From: a virus | IMG/VR virus record: IMGVR_UViG_3300032116_000456 | Location: 1-41,937 of that record | Direction: 5' to 3' (one strand) | DNA length: 41,937 bases | Shown here: positions 4,895-37,415 of the stretch, in pieces | How the letters are laid out: the number at the start of each line of letters is the position of its first letter | Numbering within the stretch: the stretch's first letter is position 1 | Program-made: the position numbers and the translations under genes | The notes under the pieces: generated by a model | Database searches by the model: none | What the model saw: the letters and a program-made list of their open reading frames with translations, nothing else | What the model was told of the DNA's origin: nothing

Positions 4895-6606
4895 TCTACT
4901 TCAAAGCAATCCGTTGGAAGAACTTCTTATCAACAGGAAACGCTTTCACCGAGCTGAAGTTGAACCAGTCGGACACCACACTCATCGTAGGTGAGAACGG
5001 TGCCGGCAAGTCGACGCTGCTCGATGCATTGTCGTTTGTACTGTACAACAAGCCATTCCGCAAAGTCAACAAGTCTCAGCTGATGAACTCGATCAACAAG
5101 AAAGATACGTTGGTTGAGATCGACTTCGACATTGGGTCGAACCGATACCACATCAAGCGCGGCATGAAGCCGAACGTCTTCGAGGTTCACCAGAACGGTA
5201 AGCTGCTCAACCAAGAGGCGGCGGACCGCGACTATCAGACTGTGCTTGAGAAGCAGATCCTAAAGCTGAATCACAAGAGCTTCTGTCAAGTCGTGGTGCT
5301 CGGCTCAGCCTCGTTCGTCCCGTTCATGGAGCTTCCCGCCGGTCAGCGGCGCGAGGTGATCGAAGACTTGCTCGACATCCAGATATTCTCGGTGATGAAC
5401 TCACTGCTCAGGGAAAAGATCTCAGGCAACAACGCCGCGATCACCAAGGTCGAGTACGAATGCGACCTGACGTCTGAGAAGATCAAGATGCAGACGCAGA
5501 TCATCGAGAGCACGAAGCTTCTCAACGACACATACGTGGCGAAGCTCAAGGAAGAGCTAAATAAGAACACAGACAGGATAGAGGAGGAGCGCGATGCTGT
5601 TAAGCGACTCAGCGAGAAAGCAGTATCCCTTAAAGCCGAGATCGAAGACCAAGAGTCGATCGGCGAGCGTCAAAAAAAGCTACAACGACTCGAGGTACAA
5701 CTCGCTGATAAAGTTGCCAAACTCACGGCTGACATCGAGTTCTTTTCTTCACACGATAGCTGTCCTACATGCAAGCAGGACATTGACCATACCTTTAAGT
5801 GTGAGACTGTCGGTGATAAACAGGGCCAAGTTCAAGAAACACGGGACGCAATCGATAAACTACAAGTGGAGATCACGCGAGTTCTTGATAGGCTACAATC
5901 CATCGCACGGGTGGCTGCTGACATTAATTCCGTGAACATCGAAGTCATCACCAAGAACAACACGATCAGCAATTTGATCGACCAGTGCAAGTCGCTCGCG
6001 GCTAAGATCAAGGAGACTCAGGAGTACAACGATAAGCTCGTGATCGACGACGGCGTCATGAAGGAGCTCGAGAGAACGCTCGGTAGACTCTCCGACGACA
6101 AGGCCGAGCTGCTGCGCGACAAAGACGCCCTCAACGTCGCGTCGATCATCCTCAAAGATACCGGCATCAAGGCTAAGATCATCAAGCAGTACGTGCCGGT
6201 CATCAACCGACTCATCAACAAGTACCTGTCGGCGATGGACTTCTTCGTCAACTTCGAGATGGATGAGAACTTCGAGGAGAAGATCAAGTCGCGATTCCGC
6301 GATGAGTTCTCATACGCATCGTTCTCAGAGGGCGAGAAGATGAGGATCAATCTGGCGATCCTATTCACGTGGCGGGCGATCGCCAGACTCCGCAACAGCG
6401 CGTCGACGAATCTACTGATCATGGACGAGGTGCTCGACGGGTCGCTCGACTCCAACGGCACCGATGAGTTCCTCAAGATAATCAGCAACCTGACGCTCGA
6501 CACCAACACCTTCATCATCAGCCACAAAGTGGATCAGATGGTGGATAAGTTCGCCAACGTCATCAAGTTTGAGAAGCACAAGAACTTCAGTAGGATAGCG
6601 GCGTGA
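4891..6606 (+). CDS. 46: gp46 recombination nuclease ATPase subunit (SbcC/Rad50-like)
   Basis: This is the ABC-type ATPase partner of gp47. Walker A GENGAGKST lies near residue 34. Long coiled-coil arms flank a zinc hook CPTCKQD near residue 293, used for dimerisation. The C-terminal lobe has a signature FSEGEKMRINLA (about 488) and Walker B LLIMDEVLDGSLD (about 518), followed by a conserved switch His in FIISHK. Length (571) is close to T4 gp46 (560). It ends in a GTGA overlap with an unrelated, AT-rich methyltransferase gene. Confidence 0.95.
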   Translation: MIYFKAIRWKNFLSTGNAFTELKLNQSDTTLIVGENGAGKSTLLDALSFVLYNKPFRKVNKSQLMNSINKKDTLVEIDFDIGSNRYHIKRGMKPNVFEVHQNGKLLNQEAADRDYQTVLEKQILKLNHKSFCQVVVLGSASFVPFMELPAGQRREVIEDLLDIQIFSVMNSLLREKISGNNAAITKVEYECDLTSEKIKMQTQIIESTKLLNDTYVAKLKEELNKNTDRIEEERDAVKRLSEKAVSLKAEIEDQESIGERQKKLQRLEVQLADKVAKLTADIEFFSSHDSCPTCKQDIDHTFKCETVGDKQGQVQETRDAIDKLQVEITRVLDRLQSIARVAADINSVNIEVITKNNTISNLIDQCKSLAAKIKETQEYNDKLVIDDGVMKELERTLGRLSDDKAELLRDKDALNVASIILKDTGIKAKIIKQYVPVINRLINKYLSAMDFFVNFEMDENFEEKIKSRFRDEFSYASFSEGEKMRINLAILFTWRAIARLRNSASTNLLIMDEVLDGSLDSNGTDEFLKIISNLTLDTNTFIISHKVDQMVDKFANVIKFEKHKNFSRIAA

Positions 6607-7244
6607 CCAAGAAGCAATATCTTAACAACTTTCATTCAACTGAACTCGCTGATAAGATAAAGAAACTTTACAGCTGCGAGTTGATCACACACGATCAATA
6701 TATGAATATGAATCCTAGAAAAAGTTTAATTTATCAGTATTTTACTATTGACACTTTCTACTATTTGGATATGATATTTGACAATGAAGACTACGACTAT
6801 TACGATATAGGTTGTGGTGATAATTTTTTTAAGAAAATTTATAGCGACAAGTTTAATGTAATAGGTATAGATACTAATGATGATGCTGATCTTCACTGTA
6901 CCTTTGAAGAATTTTTGAGTAAGAATAGAAACAAAGTCGATAGAGCCTTTGCCATCAACTCTCTGCATTTTGTACCATTTGAAAGAATAAAAGATAGAAT
7001 CATAGAATACATATCAATGTTCAAGAAAGATGGTAAAGGGCTAATCACGTTCAATATAGGTATGATGAATAGGCTTAATAAAGTTCATCAGACTAAATAC
7101 GTATTCGTTGAAGCGATGCAGAGTTTAAAGAATGATCTAAAAGATAAAGTCGACTTCTTCTTCGTTGAAATAAGCGATGAAGGAGCGAACGGAATCGACG
7201 GTACCACTAAGATATGCTTCAAAGTTTTAGAAGAGATTGAATGA
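6603..7244 (+). CDS. Class I SAM-dependent methyltransferase-like protein, AT-rich
   Basis: A 213-residue protein with a Rossmann-type SAM-binding motif I, YDIGCGDNFFKKI (about residues 62-74), an acidic GIDTNDDAD strand end and a later INSLHFVPFE segment in the motif IV region. This fits a class I methyltransferase; the substrate is unknown, and it lacks the NPPY or DPPY motif of DNA adenine methylases. The gene is strikingly AT-rich and uses A/T-ending codons, unlike both neighbours, so it was probably acquired recently. It starts with GTG overlapping the gene 46 stop (GTGA) and stops 1 base before the deformylase ATG, so it is well integrated into the operon. Confidence 0.7.
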   Translation: MTKKQYLNNFHSTELADKIKKLYSCELITHDQYMNMNPRKSLIYQYFTIDTFYYLDMIFDNEDYDYYDIGCGDNFFKKIYSDKFNVIGIDTNDDADLHCTFEEFLSKNRNKVDRAFAINSLHFVPFERIKDRIIEYISMFKKDGKGLITFNIGMMNRLNKVHQTKYVFVEAMQSLKNDLKDKVDFFFVEISDEGANGIDGTTKICFKVLEEIE

Positions 7245-8996: not shown

Positions 8997-9581
8997 ATGA
9001 GTGACCTTGCTACCTACGCCGACAAGATTTTGTCGGCTGAACCTGTAAAAGTCCAAAGAACAGAAGAGCTAAATAAAAAGTTCACGGATATAGCGAATGA
9101 GATTTATCGCTGTCCTTTTCGCAATAAGAATCGTCGTGAATTTAAGACTGTGTTTGAGTCCGTCGAAAAGATGGTCATTGAACACGCACTATCAAAGCTC
9201 ACTGGACTTGCGATGAACTGGCAATCTTTTGATCACACCAATCGTGATACATACGCTTGGGACGTGATTGATCTAGAAACTAAAAAAACTTTTGAGTGCA
9301 AGCGCTGGGCCGAGAAGTGGTTTTCATTCAACAATAAAGATATCTCAACGTTCACAAAAAACATCGACATCATCGACTACTTCGTGTCGGGCAAAGTGTT
9401 TCGCACGCCGTCTTTCTATACGGTGGCTTTTCACTTGGTAGCCGACGCGAAGTCGTTCGAGAAGTATGTTCGCCCATCACAGTACACAACAAAACTGTAC
9501 TACGATCACCACACGGCTATGAAGAAAGGTGACGCTTTCTTTCGTGACCACGTCTATTTTGAGAATGGAACAGCAGCATGA
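8997..9581 (+). CDS. Candidate PD-(D/E)XK nuclease-fold protein
   Basis: The first gene behind a consensus promoter, with CGGAGAAAAAT before its ATG. The 194-residue product has an early helix with Glu (MVIEHALSKLTG), then a strand-turn-strand WDVIDLETKKTFECKRW, in which D...ECK fits the D-x(n)-ExK active site of PD-(D/E)XK nucleases. Charged and aromatic residues follow. Such enzymes cut DNA or RNA or resolve junctions. No T4 gp49 (endonuclease VII) gene is visible here, so a junction or repair nuclease role is possible. This is a motif-level call; it could also be an inactive relative. Confidence 0.5.
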   Translation: MSDLATYADKILSAEPVKVQRTEELNKKFTDIANEIYRCPFRNKNRREFKTVFESVEKMVIEHALSKLTGLAMNWQSFDHTNRDTYAWDVIDLETKKTFECKRWAEKWFSFNNKDISTFTKNIDIIDYFVSGKVFRTPSFYTVAFHLVADAKSFEKYVRPSQYTTKLYYDHHTAMKKGDAFFRDHVYFENGTAA

Positions 9582-9943
9582 CAGACAAAGAATCCGTGAA
9601 AGTGCTTCAAGAGTGCATCGACCTGCAGCTCAAGAAGTCTCAAGACTATCAGAACCCGAACTCAAACGTGGTTCAAGCCATGCACTACCGCCGCGGCATC
9701 GATACGATCCACGACACGCTTCAAGGCAAGCTCTATCGCGCCCAATCGCTTCTTGAGTCCGGCCGCGCCGACCAAGCGAACTTCGAGTCGCTTGAGGACA
9801 CGTACAAAGATCTCATCAACTACGCTTCCTTCGCAGTGTCTTGGCTTCGCGGCAAGATCGAAGGCCAAGATCCCGAGCGCGACATCTTCAACAAGAAGCG
9901 CGAGCAGTCAAAGTACTATTACGAGAAAGATCGCAACAAATGA
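9578..9943 (+). CDS. Nmad1/DUF1599-like nucleotide-modification-associated protein
   Basis: A 121-residue helical protein with the pattern KKSQDYQNPNSNVVQAMHYR, then a DTIHDTLQGKLYRAQSLL segment and ESLEDTYKDLINYASFA. This matches, from memory, the Nmad1 (DUF1599) domain, a family named for its association with modified-nucleotide gene clusters. The acidic EDxxKDLxNY motif recalls the metal site of all-alpha NTP pyrophosphatases. Sitting directly before gp42 (4-base overlap), it is a second candidate for a nucleotide-pool enzyme in the hydroxymethylcytosine pathway. Confidence 0.6.
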   Translation: MTDKESVKVLQECIDLQLKKSQDYQNPNSNVVQAMHYRRGIDTIHDTLQGKLYRAQSLLESGRADQANFESLEDTYKDLINYASFAVSWLRGKIEGQDPERDIFNKKREQSKYYYEKDRNK

Positions 9944-10587
9944 TGACGATCGACGAGATACGACTTCGCTTCAAGTACGACTACGACCTCGAAGTCTTTG
10001 TGACCGATAAGTCAGGCGTCAGGATGCTCGAGATCATGAACGCCAGCTTCATCGCCGATCGACCGACGATCTTCGGCACGATCAACGAAGACTACGTCAA
10101 GCGCGAGCTTGAGTGGTACGAGTCTATGTCGCGCAACGTCAACGATATTCCCGGCGGGCCTCCGGCGATCTGGCAGCAGGTCGCGAGCGAGAGCGGTGAG
10201 ATCAACTCCAACTACGGTTGGTGCATCTGGTCGGACGCGAACTACGCACAGTACGACAACGTAGTCGCCGAGCTTCAAAAGAACCCAGAGTCTCGACGCG
10301 CGACCATGATCTACACACGCCCAAGTATGTGGCTCGACTACAATCGCGACGGCATGAGCGACTTCATGTGCACCAACACCGTGCAGTATATGATCCGACA
10401 CGATCGCCTGCACGCTCTCGTGTACATGCGTTCGAACGACGTCGTGTTCGGCTACAAGAACGATCGCGCTTGGCAGAAGCACGTGCTCGATCGCCTCTGC
10501 GATGAGCTCGGCTACGAGCCCGGAAACATCTACTGGAACGTCGCCTCGCTCCATGTGTATGAGAGGCACTTCGACCTTGTCCGGTAA
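9940..10587 (+). CDS. 42: dCMP hydroxymethylase (T4 gp42)
   Basis: Converts dCMP to 5-hydroxymethyl-dCMP using methylene-tetrahydrofolate. It is a thymidylate-synthase-fold protein with near-verbatim T4 gp42 blocks: INSNYGWCIWSDANYAQYD, IYTRPSMWLDYNRDGMSDFM, and MRSNDVVFGYKNDRAWQK. The nucleophile is Cys144 (in FMCTNTVQ). Asp175 occupies the place of the Asn that thymidylate synthases use for dUMP, which is the specificity switch to dCMP. At 215 residues it lacks about the last 25 residues of T4 gp42 (246). Two adjacent ATGs (9940, 9943) are possible starts. It overlaps the Nmad1-like gene by 4 bases and dCMP deaminase by 11. Confidence 0.95.
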   Translation: MMTIDEIRLRFKYDYDLEVFVTDKSGVRMLEIMNASFIADRPTIFGTINEDYVKRELEWYESMSRNVNDIPGGPPAIWQQVASESGEINSNYGWCIWSDANYAQYDNVVAELQKNPESRRATMIYTRPSMWLDYNRDGMSDFMCTNTVQYMIRHDRLHALVYMRSNDVVFGYKNDRAWQKHVLDRLCDELGYEPGNIYWNVASLHVYERHFDLVR

Positions 10588-11077
10588 GTGGATCGATAAG
10601 TACTTCAAGCTCGCTGAGCAGGTGTCGAGTTGGTCGAAAGACCCAAGCACCAAGGTCGGTGCGATCGCCGTCGGCGCGAAGGGTCAGATCCTGTCGCAGG
10701 GATACAACGGGTTCCCACGCGGGATCGAGGACAGTGAAGCTCGGCTGAGCGATCGCGGACAGAAGTATAAGTTCGTGGTCCACGCCGAGCAGAACTGCAT
10801 CTACAACGCGACGCTGAACGGGGTCAGCCTGTCAGACGCCGATATGTACATCTGGGGACTTCCTCTCTGCTCGGAGTGCGCGAAGGGTGTCATCCAAGTG
10901 GGCGTCAAGCGCGTCTTCATGTGCTACCCTTCTGAGATCCCAAGTAAATGGAGCGACTCGTTCGAGCTGACGGCCGCTATGTTGAATGAAGCTAAAGTTG
11001 AGTGGAAGTGCTATGAATCGAGTCTTAGTAGTAGGTATGAACCCGTCGAACACTCCGGGAACGACGACGGGCGTTGA
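10577..11077 (+). CDS. cd: dCMP deaminase
   Basis: Deaminates dCMP to dUMP for dTMP synthesis; in T4 it is part of the dNTP-synthesising complex with gp42. Conserved blocks are STKVGAIAV, GYNGFPRG, the zinc and catalytic HAE (69-71) and the PLCSEC zinc motif (Cys98, Cys101). The start is set at TTG 10577 because GAGAGG (10561-10566) lies 10 bases upstream; ATG 10559 is in frame but without such a site. A TTG start and 11-base overlap with gp42 suggest coupled translation. At 166 residues it is shorter than T4 Cd (193). Confidence 0.92.
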   Translation: MSGKWIDKYFKLAEQVSSWSKDPSTKVGAIAVGAKGQILSQGYNGFPRGIEDSEARLSDRGQKYKFVVHAEQNCIYNATLNGVSLSDADMYIWGLPLCSECAKGVIQVGVKRVFMCYPSEIPSKWSDSFELTAAMLNEAKVEWKCYESSLSSRYEPVEHSGNDDGR

Positions 11078-11390
11078 GCGCAAGAACTCAACGTTCGATC
11101 GCCTGCACAAGTGGTTCGATCACGCCGGCGTTCACTACTTCTCTTTCGTAAATACAACCGACAAGCGCGGTGAGATCAAGCCGGTCGACATCGACTGGGA
11201 TACACTCAAGCTGTGTCTCAAAGGTCACACCAAGATTATTGCACTCGGCGGCTTCGCCTCGACGGCGCTTGGCAGGCTAAATATAGAACACTACACTTTG
11301 CCGCACCCGTCACCTCGCAACAGGAAGTTCAACGACGCGGCCTATGAACCAATGGTCATGGAAGACTTGAGAAGGTACGTTACAAAATGA
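11013..11390 (+). CDS. Uracil-DNA-glycosylase-superfamily-like protein
   Basis: A compact 125-residue protein. It opens with VLVVGMNPSNTPG (5-16), equivalent to the substrate-binding motif of family 4/5 uracil-DNA glycosylases, has an IIALGGFASTALG strand-loop (75-87), and ends with HPSPRN (98-103), equivalent to the HPSxxN motif. It lacks the iron-sulphur cysteines of family 4 and is much smaller than usual. It could excise a base or only bind a nucleotide. Its place between dCMP deaminase and the glucosyltransferase (4-base overlap) suggests a role in cytosine or uracil quality control. Confidence 0.6.
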   Translation: MNRVLVVGMNPSNTPGTTTGVERKNSTFDRLHKWFDHAGVHYFSFVNTTDKRGEIKPVDIDWDTLKLCLKGHTKIIALGGFASTALGRLNIEHYTLPHPSPRNRKFNDAAYEPMVMEDLRRYVTK

Positions 11391-12619
11391 AAGTTGCGAT
11401 TCTCATGGGACGCGGCATCGAGGGATGCGGCGTCTCTAAGTTTACTATCGAGATGGCGAAGTACCTGCAGAAGCACGGTCACGAATACGTCGTCATCGCG
11501 GCCAAGGACAAGACTTGGTCGCGAAAGAACTCTCATGAGATGCCCAACCTCATGTACATCAAGTTCGCCGAGGACGGCGCGGTCGATCACGTTGCCGACG
11601 CCTGCAACACCTGCGACTTGGTCGTCATCAACTCGCTGCCTCCGTTCGCCTACAAGAAGAACTTGAACTACGACGTCAAGGTCGCTGAGAACTTCCGCAA
11701 GATACTGCAGAAGATCCAAGCGCCTACGGTGTTGTTTCAACACGACCATAATAAGATCTCAATCACGCGCAACGACTGCCTTAAGGAATCTATCGAGAAG
11801 TCGAAGGCTCTGTTCGCCCACTCACCGACCGGCGACTTCGCGACGGTAGTCGAGTCGCTGTCTGAAGTCGGCGGGGTGTTAGGGTTCTTTGGCGCTGAGC
11901 CTGTGAAGCGTGAGATCTTAAACTTCCAGCCCGGGATGTATTTCGACGAGGTGCGCAAGAAGTACTGGAAACCCATCGAGCAGACGGACAAGATGTGTCA
12001 CCGTTGGATCGGCCGCATGGCGCTGTGGAAGGGTCCGCGACTGATGTTCGACTTCCATGAGAAGCACCTGCGCAAGATGAACGCGCTGACGATCCTCGAG
12101 GGCATGGAGAAGTCGCTGGCTTTCGTCGAGATCAAGCAGAAGTACTCATTCCAGTACTTCAACACCGAGAACCCCGACAACGTCGACTTTACTAAATACT
12201 ACGGCGACACCGCGACAGTGTTCTCATTCTACAAGAACCATGAGCTGCTCGAGCGCCTCTCAAAGTCGGGATACGGGTACCAGCTCTCGCTTCTGGACTC
12301 AAGGTACATCAAGCGATCGATCGAGTACACACACTGCGAGGTCGCCGCCGCCGGAGCGATTCCAGTCTTTCATCGCGGATACGGCGAAGCCTGCACGCAT
12401 CGAGTCCTCGGCAAGCCCTTGACAGAATGCGCCGACAGTGGTACAATCTGGCTATCAAACGACAACATGGAGCAGTGTGCTGATTTGATCGCGACGCTCA
12501 ACACAGACGACGGCCTTCGCGACGAGTATCGCGAGAAGGCCTATGAGTTCTATAAATCACACCAAGACGCAGACGCTGTCTTCGACGAAGCGTTCAAACT
12601 GATCGGAGAGGCGAAATGA
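11387..12619 (+). CDS. agt: DNA alpha-glucosyltransferase (T4 Agt-like)
   Basis: Transfers glucose from UDP-glucose to 5-hydroxymethylcytosine in DNA with alpha linkage, protecting phage DNA from host nucleases. The 410-residue protein matches T4 Agt (400 residues) over its length: MGRGIEGCGVSKF (T4 MARGLEGCGVTKF), AAKDKTWSRKNSHE, FQHDHNKISITRN, HRWIGRMALWKGPRLMFDFH (T4 NRWIGRTTTWKGFYQMFDFH), LSKSGYGYQLSLLD, and RSIEYTHCEVAAAGAIPVF. It has the two-domain GT-B layout. GAGAAGG precedes the start. It overlaps the C5-methyltransferase gene downstream by 4 bases. Confidence 0.96.
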   Translation: MKVAILMGRGIEGCGVSKFTIEMAKYLQKHGHEYVVIAAKDKTWSRKNSHEMPNLMYIKFAEDGAVDHVADACNTCDLVVINSLPPFAYKKNLNYDVKVAENFRKILQKIQAPTVLFQHDHNKISITRNDCLKESIEKSKALFAHSPTGDFATVVESLSEVGGVLGFFGAEPVKREILNFQPGMYFDEVRKKYWKPIEQTDKMCHRWIGRMALWKGPRLMFDFHEKHLRKMNALTILEGMEKSLAFVEIKQKYSFQYFNTENPDNVDFTKYYGDTATVFSFYKNHELLERLSKSGYGYQLSLLDSRYIKRSIEYTHCEVAAAGAIPVFHRGYGEACTHRVLGKPLTECADSGTIWLSNDNMEQCADLIATLNTDDGLRDEYREKAYEFYKSHQDADAVFDEAFKLIGEAK

Positions 12620-13812
12620 AGCACGCAACAATCGTACCGCTCATAGGCGGTGAGACCCTAGGCTCTGAAAAAGCTTTCGGAAGCCGCCCAGTCTGGCTCG
12701 CTTCGTATGAAGCGTTTCAGGCAAACGACAGCCACCTGCTTAACTACTACAACAACGAGGTTCCGTATCACCTGATCGACAAGGGAAGCTTCCCAACCGA
12801 GAAGGTCGACGTCATCAGCACAGTGTGTCCATGCGCCGGCCTGTCGCAGCTGTCGCACGGCTTCGGCGACCACAACCCGAACAACAAGTGGATGATCGAG
12901 ACGGCGAAGTACGTGCTCGGCGAGCTTAAGCCCGAGGTGTTCTGGGGTGAGAACGCCCCAGGATTCGCAGGCAAGATCGGTGAGAACGTTCGCAACCAAG
13001 TGCGCCAGATCGGTCTCGACAACGGATACAGCATGACGGTCTACCGCACGCGCTCGCTCCTTCACGGGGTGGCGCAGGTGCGCGAGCGAGCTTTCTACTT
13101 CTTCTGGCGCGGCGACAAGGTTCCCGTGTTGAACTTCTACCAGCGCGAGCGTCCGACGATTGAGGACACGATACTCAGCGTCACGTCTAACTTCCAGATG
13201 GATCCGATCAATCCAAAGACTCCGTCGAAGGACGATCCCTACTACCGCTTCATCCTTGAGCACATACACGGAGGCGTGAGTCATCGCGACTTCTGTAAGA
13301 ACGTCGAGCCCGCCAAAGCGCGCGGACAGGACGTCTTATCATATATAGAACGCGTGGGCGTCGACTACGACGAGGTCGCCGAGTGGATGGGAGCCAACGG
13401 CTATCCCAAAGAAGTTGAGAAGTGCAAGGGTCGCAAGGCCAAGATTGCGGCCGGCGGAAACATCATGCGCCGCGGAACCATAGTCCCACGAGACTACATC
13501 GGCGCGTTCGTCGGTCACTACCCAATGATGCTGACGCATCCCGTCGAAGACCGCTACATAACATACAGGGAAGCCATGACGATCATGGGACTCCCGCAAG
13601 ACTTTGAGCTGCTCAACCCAAAGAAGAGCGCGAACCACATCTGTCAAAATGTACCAGTGAGCACCGCACATGACATGGCAACCGAAGTCCGTGAATATCT
13701 TGAAGGAAAGCGAGAACTCGTATCGTCTCGTCTCGCTTTCCAATACAACTTCTCTAGAACAAATGAGTTTACTGATGAACGAACAACCTCTGCGCTCGAT
13801 GCCTTCTTCTGA
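12616..13812 (+). CDS. C5-cytosine DNA methyltransferase homologue
   Basis: Has the ordered motifs of C5-cytosine methyltransferases: a degenerate motif I (IGGETLGSEKAFG, 10-22), motif IV with the catalytic Cys in CPCAGLS (Pro72-Cys73), motif VI as ENAP (112-115) in place of the usual ENV, motif VIII QVRER (154-158), a long variable target region, then motif IX-like YITYREAMTIMGLPQDF and motif X-like CQNVPVSTAHDMA. So it probably flips and attacks a cytosine C5 in DNA. What it does in a phage predicted to carry glucosyl-hydroxymethylcytosine is unclear. GGAGAGG is a strong RBS, and it is coupled to agt by a 4-base overlap. Confidence 0.85.
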   Translation: MKHATIVPLIGGETLGSEKAFGSRPVWLASYEAFQANDSHLLNYYNNEVPYHLIDKGSFPTEKVDVISTVCPCAGLSQLSHGFGDHNPNNKWMIETAKYVLGELKPEVFWGENAPGFAGKIGENVRNQVRQIGLDNGYSMTVYRTRSLLHGVAQVRERAFYFFWRGDKVPVLNFYQRERPTIEDTILSVTSNFQMDPINPKTPSKDDPYYRFILEHIHGGVSHRDFCKNVEPAKARGQDVLSYIERVGVDYDEVAEWMGANGYPKEVEKCKGRKAKIAAGGNIMRRGTIVPRDYIGAFVGHYPMMLTHPVEDRYITYREAMTIMGLPQDFELLNPKKSANHICQNVPVSTAHDMATEVREYLEGKRELVSSRLAFQYNFSRTNEFTDERTTSALDAFF

Positions 13813-14134: not shown

Positions 14135-14319
14135 ACAAGTTTCTACAATATGTAAAGCATTCAAACATACACGTGTCGCTTAGCTTGAATCCGTTCAAGT
14201 GGCGCGTTATTATTGATTGTTCTAGACGCAGCGATATGGATCCTGGGCTGTTGCTAGATTTTCTAATGATTTTAGGTCCACTAAAGATTGCAATGATCAT
14301 CGATGACGGGAGTTGGTAA
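14131..14319 (+). CDS. Small conserved phage protein (62 aa), unknown
   Basis: Product starts MNKFLQYVKHSNIHVSLSLN and continues with a strand-rich PFKWRVIIDCSRRSD, then a hydrophobic LLLDFLMILGPLKIAMIIDDG. The HVSLSLNPFKWRV pattern recalls short phage proteins annotated as hypothetical in many siphoviruses and myoviruses. GTG start overlaps the previous stop (GTGA), with GAGGAC upstream. It stops just before the glycosyltransferase gene. A beta-sheet core is more likely than a membrane helix, because charged residues interrupt the hydrophobic stretch. Confidence 0.6.
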   Translation: MNKFLQYVKHSNIHVSLSLNPFKWRVIIDCSRRSDMDPGLLLDFLMILGPLKIAMIIDDGSW

Positions 14320-14321
14320 CG

Positions 14322-15188
14322 ATGGAAATCCAGATTAAAGTTGAAGAGCTGCAGAAGAAGAAACTCTTCGTGGCTACACCTATGTACGGCGGACAGTGTA
14401 ACGGCATGTACGCCCGCTCGATGTGTGACCTCACTGCCATGTGCTTGAAGTACGGCATCGAGATGCGCTCATACTTCTTGTTCAATGAGTCGCTCATCAC
14501 TCGAGCCAGAAACTATTGTGTTGACGAATTCCTGCGCTCGGGTTATACTCACCTTATGTTCGTCGACTCGGACATCGGATTCAATCCCCAAGACGTGCTC
14601 GCTCTTCTCGCTCTCCAGACCGACGAGTCTCCATACGACATCATCGGCGGTGCGTACCCGAAGAAGTGCATCACTTGGGAAAAGATCAAGATGGCCGTCG
14701 ATAAGGGAGTCGCGGATCAGAACCCAGCGCTTCTTGAAGACTTCGTCGGCGACTTCGTCTTCAACCCAGTGATGGAGAAGGGCGAAGCTTCCAAGTCGAT
14801 CAAGCTCGACGAGCCGGCGGAAGTGCTTGAGATCGGTACTGGCTTCATGATGGTTCGCCGCGCGACCTTCGAGGAGTACGTCAAGAAGTACCCAAACATC
14901 ATGTACAAGCCCGACCACGTCCGCACCGCTGAGTTCGACGGCACGCGCCGCATCGGCATGTACTTCCAAGCCGAGGTCGACCCTGAGTCCGAGCGCTACT
15001 TGTCGGAAGACTACCTCTTCTGTCAGAACTCACGCAAGGCCGGAATGAAGGTTTGGCTCTGCCCATGGATGCACCTGCAGCACGCAGGCTTCTACACCTT
15101 CGGCGGCAAGCTCGCGGCTTTGGCATCTATCGGTGCCTCCGCGACGGCAGACCCCGCACAGATCGCCGCAACAAAAGCAAAGAAGTGA
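14322..15188 (+). CDS. GT-A-type glycosyltransferase-like protein
   Basis: A 288-residue protein with a family 2-like nucleotide-sugar fold: KLFVATPMYGGQCNGMYARS at the N-terminus, then THLMFVDSDIGFNPQDVLALL, where DSD is the metal-binding DxD motif, YDIIGGAYPKK, and an EDYLFCQNSRKAG acceptor-site segment. Similar proteins occur in many T4-like cyanophages and pelagiphages. It may glycosylate DNA, virion protein or host surface; position just after the DNA-modification block makes DNA or nucleotide sugar chemistry possible, but not shown. The start is ATG 14322 (GGGAG 10-14 bases upstream); TTG 14313 is also in frame. Confidence 0.75.
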   Translation: MEIQIKVEELQKKKLFVATPMYGGQCNGMYARSMCDLTAMCLKYGIEMRSYFLFNESLITRARNYCVDEFLRSGYTHLMFVDSDIGFNPQDVLALLALQTDESPYDIIGGAYPKKCITWEKIKMAVDKGVADQNPALLEDFVGDFVFNPVMEKGEASKSIKLDEPAEVLEIGTGFMMVRRATFEEYVKKYPNIMYKPDHVRTAEFDGTRRIGMYFQAEVDPESERYLSEDYLFCQNSRKAGMKVWLCPWMHLQHAGFYTFGGKLAALASIGASATADPAQIAATKAKK

Positions 15189-15204
15189 TTGGAGACTATA
15201 CATT

Positions 15205-15867
15205 ATGAAGTTGAGTGACAACACCATCGCGATTCTCAAGAACTTCGCGACCATCAACCCGTCGATCCTGGTCCGTCCAGGATCGACACTCTCCACCATC
15301 TCACCTCAGAAGTCGATCTTCGCGAAAGCTCCGGTCGAGGAGTCGTTTCCTCGCGAGTTCGCCATCTATGAGTTGAGCAAGTTCCTCGGCGTCCTCTCGC
15401 TCTTCAACGAGCCTGAGATCGAGTTTAAAGAAAAGTCGATGCTCATCAAGTCCGGCAAGCAGCAGATCAGCTACACATACGCCGAGCCGTCGATGATCGT
15501 CGGCGCGCCTGAGAAGGACATCACCTTCCCTGAGCCTGAGATCGACTTCAACATCACTCAGGAGGAGCTCCAGAAGGTCGTCCGCGCGACCGGCGTCCTC
15601 CAAGTTCCAGACGTCAGCATCCAAGGCAACAAGGAGAAGGTTCGCGTCTACGCCATGAACGCGAAGAACCCGACCACCGACACCTTCAGCATCGACGTCG
15701 GCGAGACCGACAAGCACTTCGACATGATCTTCAAGGCCGAGAACATCATCAAGCTCGTTCCGGCGAACTACAACGTAAAGATCTCGTCGAAGGGTTTAGC
15801 CCTGTACACTTCCGATAAAATAAGTTACTATGTAGCTACTGAGTCCAACAGCAGCTATCAGGGGTGA
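15205..15867 (+). CDS. 45: gp45 sliding clamp
   Basis: Trimeric ring that tethers DNA polymerase to DNA and, in T4, also activates late transcription by contacting gp55 and gp33. The N-terminus MKLSDNTIAILKNFATIN is almost identical to T4 gp45 (MKLSKDTTALLKNFATIN); later AIYELSKFLGVLSLFNE matches T4 AIYDLNGFLGILSLVND, and the C-terminus SYYVATESNSSYQG matches T4 NYVVALEADS. Length 220 versus 228. TTGGAGACTATACATT before the ATG is a plausible RegA-type AU-rich initiation region. It overlaps gene 44 or abuts it, depending on the gene 44 start. Confidence 0.96.
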   Translation: MKLSDNTIAILKNFATINPSILVRPGSTLSTISPQKSIFAKAPVEESFPREFAIYELSKFLGVLSLFNEPEIEFKEKSMLIKSGKQQISYTYAEPSMIVGAPEKDITFPEPEIDFNITQEELQKVVRATGVLQVPDVSIQGNKEKVRVYAMNAKNPTTDTFSIDVGETDKHFDMIFKAENIIKLVPANYNVKISSKGLALYTSDKISYYVATESNSSYQG

Positions 15868-17623: not shown

Positions 17624-18697
17624 ATGCTGAAGGTGCATCAGGAGTGGGATCCTCTTAAAGTATGTGTGGTAGGTAAGAACTATCCGCCCGAGTTCTACTC
17701 GTTCATGAAGAACGCAAAGATGCGCGATCTCTTTGAGAAGATCGCGCGCGAGACTGAAGAAGACTACCAATCGCTCATCAAGATCTTAAAGTCGTTCAAC
17801 GTCGAGGTGCTTCGTCCCGACGTACCGGACGTCGTCCCGCAGGAGTACATCGATCAGAACCTACCGATCCCAGCGCCGGTGAGCTCTATCCCGCGCGACC
17901 AGATGATCATGATCGGTGAGACGTTCTTTCTCTTCCCGTACTTCAGGGTGAACCAGAAAGTAAACTGGCGATACGAAGACCAGCGCCAGTTTAAGAACTT
18001 CGATGTATGCTGGCAGGGAATCCTTGACTACGTCGCTTCCAAGGGAAACAAAGTCGTCAACAAGCAGGATGACGAGGACTTAGCGTGGATCAAGGTCAAC
18101 GGCATCTATAGGATAGGCAAGGACCTGTTCTTTGGATCGAAGGGTGAAATGTCGGACTGGAGGGTGCTCGACGCGATCGACATAATGAAGAACACATATC
18201 TCCAAGACTATACGACGCATGCAGTTACAACAGGCGGACACATCGATGGTGTATTTAGTCCTCTCAACCCAGGACTGATATTCAGCGCATACGACGCGGA
18301 GACATACGAACACACGTTCCCCGACTGGGAGGTGGTGTACTTTGAGCAGAACCGGATGAACGCCCTTGGCGAGTGGATGTATCTAAAGGAGAAGAACAAC
18401 GGTAAGTGGTTCATTCCCGGTGTCGCCGACGACGATGAGATAATAGAGTACGTTGAGCACTGGCTTCAAGACTGGCTGGGATACGTCGAGGAGACGATCT
18501 TTGACGTGAACGTCTTAATGATCGATCCAAAGAACGTCGTGGTTTCATCCTACAACGAGAAAGCTTTCAAAGCCCTTGAAAGACATGGGATCACGCCCCA
18601 CATATCCCCTATGAGACACCGGTTCTTCTGGGACGGGGGAGCGCACTGTATAACCGCTGAGCTCCATCGCGAGGGCGAGAGGAAGACTTTCTTCTGA
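17624..18697 (+). CDS. Amidinotransferase-family (pentein) protein, paralogue 1
   Basis: A 357-residue protein of the guanidine-modifying (pentein) superfamily, closest in layout to glycine amidinotransferases. The catalytic His lies in GGHIDGVFSPL (His206), and the catalytic Cys in DGGAHCITAEL (Cys342), near the C-terminus as the family requires. The opening WDPLKVCVVGKNYPPEFY matches the family N-terminal strand. Such enzymes move an amidino group from arginine or hydrolyse guanidines. Substrate here is unknown. A paralogue with 394 residues sits at 24655. It follows regA by 23 bases and ends just before a repeated-family promoter. Confidence 0.85.
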   Translation: MLKVHQEWDPLKVCVVGKNYPPEFYSFMKNAKMRDLFEKIARETEEDYQSLIKILKSFNVEVLRPDVPDVVPQEYIDQNLPIPAPVSSIPRDQMIMIGETFFLFPYFRVNQKVNWRYEDQRQFKNFDVCWQGILDYVASKGNKVVNKQDDEDLAWIKVNGIYRIGKDLFFGSKGEMSDWRVLDAIDIMKNTYLQDYTTHAVTTGGHIDGVFSPLNPGLIFSAYDAETYEHTFPDWEVVYFEQNRMNALGEWMYLKEKNNGKWFIPGVADDDEIIEYVEHWLQDWLGYVEETIFDVNVLMIDPKNVVVSSYNEKAFKALERHGITPHISPMRHRFFWDGGAHCITAELHREGERKTFF

Positions 18698-21982: not shown

Positions 21983-22180
21983 ATGTCTATCTACCCAGCA
22001 TCCTACAAGTACGTCGTGGAGTTCGAGAAGTTCTTCACCAAGGGTAACCTGAAGTCCCTAACCATCAAGGATCGGTTGCACTTCGCCACCGAGCGGGACG
22101 CGAAGGACTGGGTCGACGCCGTCGGCAAGCTCAACAGGGACGGCAAGTTTTTCAACTTCAAAGTGAGGAGTGCAGCATGA
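21983..22180 (+). CDS. Small basic phage protein (65 aa), unknown
   Basis: Begins MSIYPASYKYVVEFEKFFTK and includes LHFATERDAKDWVDAVGKL, a strand-strand-helix layout suggesting a small alpha/beta domain. No family recognised. TGGAGATACC before the ATG and the consensus promoter immediately upstream support expression. It shares a 4-base overlap with the membrane protein downstream. Confidence 0.65.
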   Translation: MSIYPASYKYVVEFEKFFTKGNLKSLTIKDRLHFATERDAKDWVDAVGKLNRDGKFFNFKVRSAA

Positions 22181-22362
22181 AGTTTCACGAGTACTTAACC
22201 TACGCCATCATCGCGTTCATCGTCGTAGATCTCATCTACAGGCTCTTCAGCCAAGACTGGGGCAACATCGGCCTGTCGATCACAGCCCTCATCGGTTGGT
22301 TCTACGTCCAAGGCTACGAGCGTCAGGAGCGCCTCGAGCGCGAAGCGAAGTTCACGCCTTAA
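22177..22362 (+). CDS. Small membrane protein (61 aa)
   Basis: Two hydrophobic segments, YAIIAFIVVDLIYRLF and IGLSITALIGWFYVQGY, are separated by a short polar turn, and the C-terminal tail is charged (ERQERLEREAKF). This predicts a two-helix inner-membrane hairpin. The ATGA start overlap and 1-base overlap with the radical SAM gene put it in one operon. Function unknown; small membrane proteins of this size can be holin-like or regulators of host transporters, but nothing specific is visible. Confidence 0.7.
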   Translation: MKFHEYLTYAIIAFIVVDLIYRLFSQDWGNIGLSITALIGWFYVQGYERQERLEREAKFTP

Positions 22363-23405
22363 TGTATAAGTACGAAGACGTCAGGGTGGTTCACCTTGAG
22401 ATAACCGGCAAGTGTCAAGCCGGCTGCTCGATGTGTTCAAGAAACGATGAGACCGACAGCGACATCCTTGTGGCTCCAACCACTGCTGAGCTGAGCTACG
22501 AAGACTGTGTCAAGATCTTTCCAAAGGACCTGATCAAGCAGCTCAGCGGCATGTATATGTGCGGCAACTACGGCGATCCCATCATCGCCAAGGATACGCT
22601 TGAGGTGTTCGAGTACTTTAGGTATGCTAATCGCGACATGGAGCTGAATATGTACACCAACGGTGGGGCACGATCCCCGACGTGGTGGAAGGACTTGGCC
22701 GGAATACTTCAGCACGGAAAAGGAAGGGTCGTCTTCGCGGTCGATGGTCTTGAGGACACAAATCACATCTACAGGGAGAACGTTCGCTGGAACAACGTCA
22801 TGTCGTCGGCGAAGGCCTTCATCGCCGCCGGCGGCGAAGCGCGATGGCACTACTTGGTTTTCAAACACAACGAGCATCAAGTTGAAGAAGCGAGGGAGCT
22901 GGCGAAGAAGATGGGATTCGCCTCCTTCGTCGTCAAGCGAACGAGCAGGTGGCAGGGTCAGACCACGTATAAGCACCTGTCTCAACCTGAGAAGAAGGAA
23001 TACGTTCACCAAGTCAACAACATCAAGGCGCAGATCGTTAAGATCTACGGATCATTTGATAACTTTGTGAATAAAACGAGTATAAGTTGTAGGGTGCAGA
23101 AGGAGAGGGGCATCTACATAACGGCCGAGGGGCTCATGGTTCCCTGCTGCTGGCTCGGTGGATCCGCCATCTACGACGCCGATAAGCGCTCATACAAAGA
23201 GGGTGAACTGTTTCAACACATGGGCGGCGATAAAAGCAACATCAACGCTAAGGTTCACGGGATAAAGAAGATCTTAGAGGACGGCTTCTTCGATAAGATA
23301 GAGAAGTCGTGGAGCTCAGGCTCCACGACCAATGGTAAGCTTAAGACCTGCGCGAAGGTGTGTTCCGTGGATCACGACAACTTCGGCGAGCAATTCATAA
23401 AATGA
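22362..23405 (+). CDS. Radical SAM protein with C-terminal SPASM-like cysteines
   Basis: A 347-residue radical SAM enzyme. The [4Fe-4S] motif CQAGCSMC (CxxxCxxC) lies near residues 17-24 after the usual hydrophobic strand (VVHLEITGK). GNYGDPI is the GGE-like SAM-binding strand, and NMYTNGG is typical of the core barrel. The C-terminus has further cysteines (ISCRV, VPCCWLG, CAKVCS) spaced like a SPASM or twitch domain holding auxiliary clusters, as in enzymes that modify peptides or small molecules. No precursor peptide is evident. Start ATG 22362 is set by the overlap with the previous stop. Confidence 0.85.
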   Translation: MYKYEDVRVVHLEITGKCQAGCSMCSRNDETDSDILVAPTTAELSYEDCVKIFPKDLIKQLSGMYMCGNYGDPIIAKDTLEVFEYFRYANRDMELNMYTNGGARSPTWWKDLAGILQHGKGRVVFAVDGLEDTNHIYRENVRWNNVMSSAKAFIAAGGEARWHYLVFKHNEHQVEEARELAKKMGFASFVVKRTSRWQGQTTYKHLSQPEKKEYVHQVNNIKAQIVKIYGSFDNFVNKTSISCRVQKERGIYITAEGLMVPCCWLGGSAIYDADKRSYKEGELFQHMGGDKSNINAKVHGIKKILEDGFFDKIEKSWSSGSTTNGKLKTCAKVCSVDHDNFGEQFIK

Positions 23406-24654: not shown

Positions 24655-25839
24655 ATGGTGAACAGTTGGGACGAGTTTCAGCCGCTTCAGGAGTTGGTCC
24701 TCGGCAGCTTCTACGACAGGAGCTTCTTTGAGGATATACGAAACCCTAGGATCAGAGACGTGCTCGTACAGATCGCCGACGAGACGCAGGAAGACCTAGA
24801 GAACTTCAAAGAGAAGATGAAGTCACACGGAGTCTCAGTTGTGCAGTACACGCCGGAGGAGCTCGGCTACAAGGAGAGCATCCTCGACTACGTCGACATA
24901 TACGGCAGGCTGAGTCTCGAAGGATCAAACAAGCACAACTACCCGCTGAAAGCAAACATGCTTCCGGCGCCTCCGCTTGAGCCTCGAGACAACATCATAG
25001 TCATGGGAGATAAGATCTTCGTTAGCGATCCAACGTACGCTTCTAAGAAGATATCTGAGAAGCTTAAGGAGACTTACGGCGTTGATAGCGTCGACGACTC
25101 ACTCAGCGACGACAACACCAAGTTTCGTCGCGGTAGAGAAAACATACTATCTAGACTTAAGCGCACGATGGATCACGACGCCGTCGACCGCATGTCAGAC
25201 GATGAGATCGATCGACACTCCGCAAGCACCATGCTCACCGGCTTCTGCAGCCCTAACTTGACGCGCATAGGCTCAAAGTGCTTGGTCGATGTCGCTCAGA
25301 CCGAGGACGCCGTACCATTTCTTGAGAAGAACTACCCTAAGTTCAAGTACGATAAGCTCAACCTAGGCGGACACAACGACAGCATCTTCGGCGTTCTAAA
25401 GCCGGGACTCGTCATCGCGTCTAAGTTCTTAGCCGAGTGCAAGCAGGAGAGCGTGTTTGAGAAGTGGAAGGTCATCTACTTCGACGATCCGGTATGGGAC
25501 CGCGTCGGTAAGTTCAAGAAGCTGCGCAGGAAGAACCTAGGCAAGTGGTGGGTTCCCGATCAAGAGGACAACGACGACTTCACCTACTTCGTCGAGTACT
25601 TCCTTGAGAACTTAACCGGTCAAGTCGATGAGACGGTGTTCGACGTAAACGTATTGGTTATCGACGACAAGCACGTCGTGGTCAACAGCGCGAGCAAGGA
25701 GCTGTTCAAGGTTCTACGGGAGAACGGCATGGAGCCGATCCACTGTCCGATAAGACACAGGTTCTTCTTCGACGGCGGATGGCACTGCTTGACGCTCGAC
25801 ACCATAAGGAAGGGGGAGCAGGTTGATTACGGAATTTAA
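24655..25839 (+). CDS. Amidinotransferase-family (pentein) protein, paralogue 2
   Basis: A 394-residue paralogue of the protein at 17624. Both share the opening (WDEFQPLQELVLGSFYDRSF versus WDPLKVCVVGKNYPPEFY), the catalytic His motif GGHNDSIFGVL (His240), the NLGKWWVPD block (NNGKWFIPG in the other), ETVFDVNVLVID, and the catalytic Cys motif DGGWHCLTLD (Cys378). About 40 extra charged residues are inserted before the His motif (145-190). It should transfer or hydrolyse guanidino groups; the substrate is unknown. AAAGGTG precedes the ATG. It overlaps the next gene by 17 bases, suggesting a joint function. Confidence 0.85.
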   Translation: MVNSWDEFQPLQELVLGSFYDRSFFEDIRNPRIRDVLVQIADETQEDLENFKEKMKSHGVSVVQYTPEELGYKESILDYVDIYGRLSLEGSNKHNYPLKANMLPAPPLEPRDNIIVMGDKIFVSDPTYASKKISEKLKETYGVDSVDDSLSDDNTKFRRGRENILSRLKRTMDHDAVDRMSDDEIDRHSASTMLTGFCSPNLTRIGSKCLVDVAQTEDAVPFLEKNYPKFKYDKLNLGGHNDSIFGVLKPGLVIASKFLAECKQESVFEKWKVIYFDDPVWDRVGKFKKLRRKNLGKWWVPDQEDNDDFTYFVEYFLENLTGQVDETVFDVNVLVIDDKHVVVNSASKELFKVLRENGMEPIHCPIRHRFFFDGGWHCLTLDTIRKGEQVDYGI

Positions 25840-27240: not shown

Positions 27241-27269
27241 TTGACATTTAGACCGGTGTGTTTTATAGT
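27241..27269 (+). promoter_or_regulatory. Sigma-70-like promoter of DNA polymerase gene
   Basis: TTGACA (27241-27246), 17 bases, TATAGT (27264-27269). The predicted start is at or within the ATG codons at 27270 and 27276, so transcripts from here would have little or no leader. Confidence 0.78.
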
Positions 27270-27275
27270 ATGACT

Positions 27276-29825: not shown

Positions 29826-30469
29826 TGAAGCTACACACATCGCAGGGCGACGTCATCATAGACATACCCGAAGAATACACGAAGATCGGCATCAAGATCT
29901 CTGGTGGAGCCGACAGCGCCCTTCTCGCCTACATGCTTGCACTGTACAAGAAGCACGAGAGAGACGTAGACCTGATACCTATCACGGTCATCAACGCGAT
30001 CAAGCCGCACCAGCACATCTTCGCGCAGAGGGTGGTCAAGTTCGTCGAAGATAAACTGAGCGTGAAGTTCAATCACCATCAGATAAAGCCTGAGCCGGTA
30101 GATCCTCAGAGGTACGGTGAGGAGCAGTCTATCTTCGTTAGAAGCTTGAGGAAGCAGGAGATAATCGAGACGCACTTCACAGGTATAACTGAGAATCCAG
30201 ACGTTGAGCTTAAGACCGACTACACCGGCGATTCAACAAGAAACAAAGATCTTGGGTCTAAACCCACGAGAGACCTGTATTCATTCCATCCGTTCGCCAA
30301 CATAAATAAGAAAGCCATAGCCGAACTTTATGAAAGCTATGGACTTATGGACACTCTCTTCGCGATAACAAGAAGCTGTGAAAACAGCAAGATTCACTTC
30401 ACCGAACCACACTGCGGAAAGTGCTGGTGGTGCCTCGAGAGGCAGTGGGGATTCGGTAGGCTCGAATAG
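29825..30469 (+). CDS. PP-loop ATPase (QueC-like N-type ATP pyrophosphatase)
   Basis: A 214-residue protein with the PP-loop SGGADS (26-31) of N-type ATP pyrophosphatases, which adenylate a substrate carbonyl before amination or thiolation. Its C-terminus has CENSKIHF...CGKCWWCLERQWGF (Cys185, 197, 200, 203), a four-cysteine zinc site like that of QueC, the preQ0 synthase. QueC itself, an asparagine-synthetase-like enzyme or a tRNA-thiolating relative are all possible. No other 7-deazaguanine genes (folE, queD, queE, dpdA) are visible here. It overlaps the DNA polymerase stop by 1 base. Confidence 0.72.
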   Translation: MKLHTSQGDVIIDIPEEYTKIGIKISGGADSALLAYMLALYKKHERDVDLIPITVINAIKPHQHIFAQRVVKFVEDKLSVKFNHHQIKPEPVDPQRYGEEQSIFVRSLRKQEIIETHFTGITENPDVELKTDYTGDSTRNKDLGSKPTRDLYSFHPFANINKKAIAELYESYGLMDTLFAITRSCENSKIHFTEPHCGKCWWCLERQWGFGRLE

Positions 30470-37330: not shown

Positions 37331-37415
37331 GTCTATTTCCTCATTGGTTGGATGACGAGTCACTCAATCAATGCAGCATAGGCATGAAAAAGATGTTGTA
37401 AATAATAGTATACAC

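Follow-up and report, generated by a model that had tools for sequence, protein, structure and literature searches.

A separate phage clade with a cytosine C5-methyltransferase fold and an altered cofactor pocket accompanies predicted hydroxymethylcytosine machinery

Introduction

DNA cytosine C5-methyltransferases act through the attack of a cysteine on C6 of a flipped cytosine, and a dCMP hydroxymethylase produces 5-hydroxymethylcytosine (hmC) ahead of DNA synthesis. Engineering of M.HhaI showed that shortening the conserved pocket residues Gln82 and Asn304 admits bulky groups (PMC10666283). CmoX, the DNA cytosine C5-carboxymethyltransferase of Synechococcus phage S-B43 (structure 8yf3), has an arginine instead of Asn304, which touches the carboxymethyl group (PMC12783734). 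Action of C5-methyltransferases on hmC is described, in the literature we found, in the test tube only: M.SssI couples the thiol cysteamine to hmC (PMC7176277), and the adduct of M.MpeI with hmC is presumed to lose the hydroxymethyl group (PMC11347137). Concerning the decoration of hmC, the α-glucosyltransferase of phage T4 co-purifies with the gp45 sliding clamp, whereas the β-glucosyltransferase does not (PMC13216743), and RB69 DNA contains arabinosyl-hmC (PMC6024577). Here, we analyse a C5-methyltransferase homologue encoded in a hydroxymethylcytosine locus of a T4-like phage, and the clade to which it belongs. Its gene (P0001) occupies positions 12616-13812 on the plus strand of the IMG/VR record IMGVR_UViG_3300032116_000456, with the ATG at 12616 and a TGA ending at 13812, and encodes 398 amino acids. 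The entire 41,937-base record is referred to as the window; the remainder of this phage genome lies outside the data. A literature search (titles and abstract openings, open-access PMC only) returned no description of the clade or its locus.

Results

The first-pass annotation of the window, made from the letters alone, had proposed a C5-methyltransferase homologue at 12616-13812 that overlaps the upstream agt gene by 4 bases, and both parts of this proposal proved right. The ATG sits in the agt stop codon (ATGA, 12616-12619), and the product matches PF00145 (DNA_methylase) over residues 10-357 with an E-value of 4.3e-19 and 69.5 bits (cut-off 22). The NCBIfam dcm model gives just 28.6 bits, its cut-off being 100.65. 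An AlphaFold2 model (mean pLDDT 85.2, pTM 0.85) found its best fold match in M.HaeIII (1dct; Z 22.1, r.m.s.d. 3.0 over 268 residues), followed by M.HhaI (Z 21.7) and CmoX (8yf3; Z 21.3), and structure comparison places the methyltransferase fold at residues 1-362/365. Judging from the Pfam match, the fold and the catalytic motifs, the protein is a member of the PF00145 fold superfamily. A defence-system reading was also considered and dropped, as the 23 PADLOC models that match (MTase_II, DruM, DrmMII) tell no more than the fold.

To compare individual residues, we aligned 41 of 84 relatives, hand-picked for spread, with 30 canonical enzymes, using M.HhaI numbering and residue equivalences from MAFFT and HHalign alignments, in which the E40 and D60 positions are ambiguous. 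The canonical set consists of 30 high-scoring matches, one per genome, from 120 genomes of one phylum; the loci L154-L163 of our numbering, mostly clade members, were excluded from it. One open reading frame (ORF) was taken from each of the 30 loci by the patterns PC, E[NI][VAPT] and QxRxR, so that canonical conservation at these motifs is partly built in, whereas that at G20 and N304 is independent of the choice. The equivalents of Cys81, Ser85, Glu119, Asn120, Arg163 and Arg165 are present in all 41 family rows and that of Gln161 in 40, and the cysteine, the glutamate and both arginines are unchanged in relatives down to 23% identity. In the window protein, these motifs comprise Cys73, followed by Ala74 (12832-12837; canonical PCQ, Cys in 41/41), motif VI E112-N-A-P115 (12949-12960; each of E, N, A and P in 41/41) and motif VIII Q154-V-R156-E-R158 (13075-13089; both Arg in 41/41, Gln in 40/41). 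A disrupted catalytic cysteine, named in the first-pass annotation as a sign against such an enzyme, was thus not found; C73 and QxRxR are intact.

By contrast, the residues of the cofactor and C5 pocket are replaced. Motif I reads V-P-L-I-G-G (residues 7-12, 12634-12651) in place of canonical F-A-G-x-G-G. Here, 40 rows have Leu and the remaining one Phe at the G20 position (canonical Gly, 30/30), the F18 equivalent is Val or Ile and that of Ala19 is Pro (40/41 each), and the G22 equivalent is retained (41/41). The Q82 equivalent is Ala in 39 and Ser in 2 rows (canonical Gln, 28/30), F84 has become Leu (41/41) and V121 Ala (41/41; canonical Val, 30/30). In motif X, C343-Q344-N345-V346-P347 (13642-13656), Gln344 stands at the M.HhaI Asn304 position, which is Gln in 41/41 family rows, Asn in 30/30 canonical enzymes and Arg in CmoX. 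The adjoining Gly303 equivalent is Cys or Ala (41/41) and the Ser305 equivalent Asn (40/41). At the Glu40 position, where the alignment is uncertain, E occurs in 25, S in 9, K in 4, T in 2 and D in 1 of the rows. ENAP instead of ENV and the altered motif I (PLIGG), both of which had been remarked on in the first-pass annotation, are therefore fixed or near-fixed among the relatives. With the G20 and N304 equivalents replaced in 41/41 rows, the clade falls outside the dcm type as given by motif I F-x-G-x-G-G and Asn304. The C5-methyltransferases of the phages Melnitz, Fnu1 and Elbi keep G20 and V121 (3/3) and, in two of three cases, N304. Since Q82- and N304-type positions are changed, the clade differs where the cofactor meets the C5 substituent. 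Taken together, the alignments indicate that the residues for covalent catalysis are intact, and that those of the cofactor/C5 pocket have been swapped as fixed differences.

Relatives of the homologue were first inspected in 80 IMG/VR loci, and at least 585 of 600 pattern-matched IMG/VR stretches among those listed encode one. Named phages contribute 8 records, namely XG4, five cyanophages of the S-TIM5 type and two of Bacillus phage G, with 25-32% identity. A scan of genome contigs gave 10 loci in metagenome-assembled genomes (MAGs), of which 9 have the gene; because the neighbours of these 9 are T4-like, we read them as phage contigs. Identical homologue sequences were merged, which reduced 151 loci (9 of them the MAG contigs) to 98 distinct ones. 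The window itself (L081) was left out of tail and locus counts, and XG4, S-TIM54 and phage G (L082-L084) were excluded from the 57/57 and 67/70 counts given below and are reported apart. In an IQ-TREE phylogeny of 47 proteins, 16 family rows split from the 30 canonical enzymes and CmoX with a support of 100/99; several terminal branches are long, including that of phage G. The ratio of nonsynonymous to synonymous substitution rates (dN/dS) was 0.08 and 0.06 in two of three tested pairs, the synonymous sites being saturated in the third. By sequence, the homologue is thus part of a separate phage clade, neither a decayed gene nor a lone oddity, and the at least 585 of 600 stretches together with a dN/dS of 0.06-0.08 confirm that the observation exceeds chance.

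The neighbourhood of the gene encodes predicted enzymes for hmC. A hydroxymethylase is present in 57/57 loci with a distinct copy of the homologue and more than 5 kb of upstream DNA, and in 70/74 with more than 3 kb; a dCMP deaminase accompanies it in 54 of the 57. All 74 distinct hydroxymethylase copies carry Asp at the Asn177 position of thymidylate synthase (TS), where two TS controls have Asn, and we take this Asp to be the mark of a dCMP hydroxymethylase. Asp-type hydroxymethylases also lie ~5, ~3 and ~15 kb from the homologue in XG4, S-TIM54 and phage G (gp319), respectively, so that the enzyme was found in all four lineages seen to carry the homologue. PF00303 matches 15 of 17 records, the exceptions being the CmoX phage S-B43 and the 46-kb L048 record, which ends at the gene. 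Downstream, a GT-A-fold glycosyltransferase occurs in 67 of 70 loci with more than 2.5 kb of sequence. It is absent from L090-L092, and uvsX follows the homologue in L090-L093; this partner is therefore not universal. A MazG-like protein (PRA-PH, PF01503) was found in 64/76 loci (identical copies included) whose upstream DNA exceeds 6.5 kb. The clade, distinct within the C5-methyltransferase fold, is thus found with the predicted hydroxymethylcytosine machinery of phages.

The C-terminus of the homologue reads LDAFF (13795-13809), a putative binding motif for the gp45 sliding clamp that resembles the IESFF end of the DNA polymerase of the same phage. As a pattern, we used [LIM]xx[FY][FLIVYW] followed by at most one residue, picked after viewing the tails; what we take to be a clamp-binding tail is drawn in part from the window's own polymerase. 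The pattern is present in 75/83 relatives with a stop codon (39/46 distinct ends), in 13/13 distinct DNA polymerase ends and in the single end of the window's gp41-type helicase (1/1). It was found in none of 13 AGT, 27 hydroxymethylase and 42 GT-A ends; among other ORFs of at least 100 aa, 32 of 1407 distinct C-termini matched. Among the matches listed, 33 pattern-matching ORFs are at least 150 aa long, and 24 of these are in the slot directly upstream of the homologue. We infer that the LxxFF tail may dock the homologue on the gp45 clamp. A VEGxxSFF-like end was seen in an unassigned ORF of L015 (19884-20591, minus strand) and similarly in L021, L049, L058, L064 and L080; this ORF, 153 aa long in L021 and about 235 aa in the other five loci, may encode a further clamp-binding protein of phages.

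The content of the slot, which lies between the dCMP deaminase and the homologue, is exchanged between phages. Even agt is inconstant: PF11440 matches 22/50 records, and agt is lacking in the 158-kb XG4 record and in five contigs whose lengths range from 95 to 174 kb. Other fillings are a UDP-galactopyranose mutase with a phrog_14998 protein, in some loci plus an epimerase; a UDP-glucose dehydrogenase, an epimerase and a protein with a sub-threshold T4 β-glucosyltransferase match; a protein with a sub-threshold match to group-1 glycosyltransferases; a nucleotidyltransferase with a glycosyltransferase-like protein; an inositol-phosphate synthase with an HMUDK_hel-like protein; and a threonine-dehydratase-like protein with proteins lacking assignment. 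As the homologue stays constant while the slot varies, it should carry out a step that is common to these phages and independent of the decoration. The first-pass annotation had described the homologue as coupled to the glucosyltransferase. The overlap with agt is real, but the description is too narrow, agt being one of several slot fillings and the hydroxymethylase, the dCMP deaminase and the GT-A enzyme (67/70) the steadier partners. UDP-galactopyranose mutase genes occupy the slot at L032:3111-4145 (PF03275, E 3.5e-50), in L047, L057, L062 and others, which suggests galactofuranosyl-hydroxymethylcytosine DNA in some phages. In L054 (5032-8395) and L076 (4705-8068), the slot holds inositol-phosphate synthase, nucleoside 2-deoxyribosyltransferase-like and HMUDK_hel-like genes, possibly for a non-sugar or inositol decoration of hmC.

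A route of methylation, oxidation and glucosylation, raised in the first-pass annotation as one option, found no support. As that annotation had observed, the 42-kb window, itself only part of its phage genome, shows no TET/JBP oxygenase (no Tet_JBP match), nor was there a match in 17 other records, most of them fragments and 16 of them with the homologue, while the Melnitz-3 control was positive; a search of 50 records in which no control gave a signal likewise yielded 0/50. CmoA was found in 0/48 other records, many of them fragments and the window outside the search, the S-B43 control matching below the curated cut-off. Following PMC12783734, we defined CmoX by SPPC together with an Arg equivalent to N304; membership was rejected, as SPPC occurs in 0/41 rows, position 304 is Gln and not Arg (41/41) and no CmoA was found.

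PHROG matches mark the window as part of a T4-like phage genome with an SbcC-type protein (gp46), clamp, clamp loader, regA-type repressor, DNA polymerase, UvsX and replicative helicase. Its gene order runs from a MazG-like gene, an ORF without assignment, DUF1599, hydroxymethylase, dCMP deaminase and a uracil-DNA glycosylase (UDG)-like ORF through agt and the homologue to DUF3310, the GT-A enzyme, clamp and clamp loader. All of the following features lie on the plus strand. The DUF1599 nucleotide-modification-associated domain 1 protein (9578-9943) matches PF07659 with E 4.9e-05 and 24.0 bits (cut-off 25). The dCMP hydroxymethylase-type TS homologue (9943-10587; PF00303, phrog_160), whose start codon was set by eye and whose protein was scanned from 9946, has Asp at the TS Asn177 position, and is followed by the dCMP deaminase (10502-11077; phrog_174, E 9.7e-38). 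Here, the slot is filled by agt, the DNA α-glucosyltransferase (11387-12619; PF11440, E 2.9e-75; phrog_2888). The usual downstream partner, the GT-A-fold glycosyltransferase (14313-15188; phrog_1574, AlphaFold2 pLDDT 87.9), is closest in fold to viral A197 (Z 16.8) and lysyl hydroxylase LH3 (Z about 15). The candidate docking partner, the gp45-type sliding clamp, lies at 15133-15867 (phrog_223, E 8e-75), and the gp43-type DNA polymerase (27258-29825; phrog_262) ends in KKASIESFF. The earlier reading of the window as coming from a hydroxymethylcytosine phage with a true agt is upheld by these matches, and its T4-type hmC setting is real.

Several further ORFs of the window are of note. Between dCMP deaminase and agt, a small protein encoded at 10986-11390 resembles the UDG superfamily (PF03167, E 0.0046, below cut-off), and its relatives occur in 32/76 loci (identical copies included) that have over 6.5 kb of upstream DNA. 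The ORF at 6603-7244 resembles a class-I S-adenosylmethionine (SAM) methyltransferase by eye; as a synthase of the carboxy-SAM (Cx-SAM) type it was dropped, having no Pfam or PHROG match and no phage relative and being absent from the other loci read. Positions 17624-18697 and 24655-25839 encode paralogues (30% identity, E 4e-52) with no Pfam match, which may be amidinotransferase-like, judging by eye. The window further encodes a radical-SAM-like protein (22170-23405; PF04055, slightly below cut-off) and a QueC-like PP-loop protein (29825-30469; PF06508, E 2.5e-06). On the minus strand, 35369-37363 codes for a Thr/Ser-rich protein of 664 aa, which lacks a Pfam match and whose start looks signal-like by eye.

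Discussion

The interpretation we prefer, which we put slightly short of probable, is that of a clamp-tethered enzyme that would use covalent catalysis to alter the C5 substituent of hmC in nascent phage DNA, with the SAM step altered or absent. The LxxFF tail would dock the enzyme on the gp45 clamp, and the enzyme would therefore act next to the polymerase, on phage DNA that has just been synthesized. Hydroxymethylcytosine would be the flipped base under attack: Cys73 would add to C6, and Glu112 and Arg156/Arg158 would activate the ring as in C5-methyltransferases generally. The hydroxymethyl group at C5 would then be changed by substitution or transfer via an enamine/exocyclic-methylene state, with a different cofactor or none, in place of SAM methylation of C5-H. 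We favour such a change over SAM methylation because of the small residues at Val121 and Gln82, the Gln at Asn304 and the loss of Gly and Phe from motif I. The product would coexist with the group that the interchangeable slot enzymes attach, or be used ahead of it. Given the intact machinery, the smaller residues at the Val121 and Gln82 positions, the changed cofactor side and the presence of a hydroxymethylase, the enzyme would most simply act on hmC. A more specific form, possible but doubtful in our view, is a SAM-independent DNA enzyme that would attack hmC, expel water and let the exocyclic methylene accept hydride or a small nucleophile; a base not yet described would then be installed at the fork via the clamp in many T4-like phages. 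Among the four options offered in the first-pass annotation, a putative re-purposing for the hydroxymethyl carbon fits best. Host DNA editing is disfavoured, as a tail in common with the DNA polymerase and the slot proteins suggests that the substrate is phage DNA at the fork; action before full modification is likewise disfavoured, given the same tail and a pathway in which hmC is made before DNA synthesis.

A number of observations weigh against this interpretation. The window AGT is matched by 627 phage records but the homologue is present in only 8 records, so that hmC can form and be glucosylated without it. SAM binding may persist despite the losses in motif I, as the G22 equivalent is kept (41/41) and the aromatic Y31 may stand in for W41, the E40 and D60 alignments being ambiguous. 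Gln is longer than Asn, hence the change at 304 is no enlargement like N304A. The tail pattern, chosen post hoc after viewing both tails, is missing from XG4, S-TIM54, phage G, L047, L052, L053, L063 and L066. Moreover, the level of T4 α-glucosylation is not mainly set by clamp binding (PMC13216743), so that the tail need not imply obligatory work at the fork.

The intact catalytic residues and the methyltransferase fold over residues 1-362/365 would also suit a clamp-tethered, SAM-dependent C5-methyltransferase that patrols nascent phage DNA and methylates the few cytosines that residual dCTP has left unmodified, which would protect them against nucleases of phage or host. Such an enzyme requires no new chemistry, accounts for the independence from the slot genes and agrees with the fork work suggested by the tail. 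However, several pocket positions that are (near-)fixed in the 30 canonical enzymes are replaced across the whole clade, the MazG-like protein (64/76 loci) could already clear dCTP, and T4-type phages with AGT mostly lack the homologue; we consider it rather unlikely. Less likely again is a CmoX-like transferase that would give a larger group from a modified SAM, not Cx-SAM, to cytosine C5, with Gln344 in place of CmoX Arg350 for recognition of that group. In CmoX, the N304 position touches the group to be transferred, and it corresponds to the engineered N374K of M.MpeI (PMC12783734); the clade shares a small residue at the Q82 position with CmoX (Ser), but no CmoA homologue was found in 48 other records with the S-B43 control positive, no alternative cofactor synthase was noticed among the scanned locus proteins, and unmodified C5-H should be rare in hmC phages.

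C5-methyltransferases are reported to lose the hydroxymethyl group of hmC, some without SAM (PMC11347137), which, like a loss of the SAM pocket, would fit a dehydroxymethylase that releases the group as formaldehyde at selected hmC sites and restores cytosine for signalling, packaging or transcription. As removal of a protective base at the fork brings no evident benefit and the data examined hold no specific support, this seems improbable. We regard as very improbable an ordinary orphan methyltransferase acting on host DNA or in regulation, with the hmC locus a positional accident. C5-methyltransferase homologues are indeed common in other phage records (82 match phage G gp301), but the hydroxymethylase is a neighbour in 57/57 loci and lies within ~5, 3 and 15 kb in XG4, S-TIM54 and phage G, and the polymerase-like tail and the fixed pocket changes also speak against an accident. 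The 4-base overlap with agt and the usual transferase neighbours would be in line with a protein without catalysis of its own that flips the base as a reader or scaffold and thereby offers hmC to the slot transferase and the GT-A enzyme; as the Cys, the Glu and both Arg stay invariant even at 23% identity, this is the reading we find hardest to credit.

Were the clamp-tethered alteration of hmC true, the clade would make evolution's use of a C5-methyltransferase on an already modified cytosine testable in public phage genomes, with S-TIM5 and its relatives, XG4 and G as phages with named hosts for such a study. The locus seems modular, in that the hmC decoration is swapped (glucose, perhaps galactofuranose, others) and the core stays, and the tail would link base modification to replication.

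Compared with canonical C5-methyltransferases such as M.HaeIII (1dct) and M.HhaI, the clade has the same fold over residues 1-365 (Z about 22) and shares motifs IV, VI and VIII (Cys, Glu-Asn, Gln-x-Arg-x-Arg) and the Arg-Glu of motif IX. It differs from them at F18, A19, G20, Q82, F84, V121, G303 and N304, E40 being unconserved, and in its polymerase-like C-terminal tail and hydroxymethylcytosine locus. CmoX is likewise a phage relative of C5-methyltransferases in a hypermodification locus with changed N304 and Q82 positions; unlike the clade, it keeps F18, G20 and V121, has SPPC and Arg at 304, and stands outside the clade in the phylogeny, and its phage S-B43 lacks a PF00303 match. In the Methylophilales phage Melnitz-3, a C5-methyltransferase homologue also stands beside a hypermodification gene (L206, 4010-6194). 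In contrast to the clade, this enzyme keeps F18, G20, ENV and SPPC. Leu occupies its N304 position, a Tet_JBP protein (44.4 bits) is encoded next to it, and the pair is likely a methylate-oxidise system. Finally, the locus resembles the T4 α-glucosyltransferase system in combining a dCMP hydroxymethylase with a DNA glycosyltransferase, the T4 enzyme co-purifying with gp45 (PMC13216743), but differs from it in the additional C5-methyltransferase-fold enzyme, usually a GT-A enzyme, and an AGT that is swapped out in many phages.

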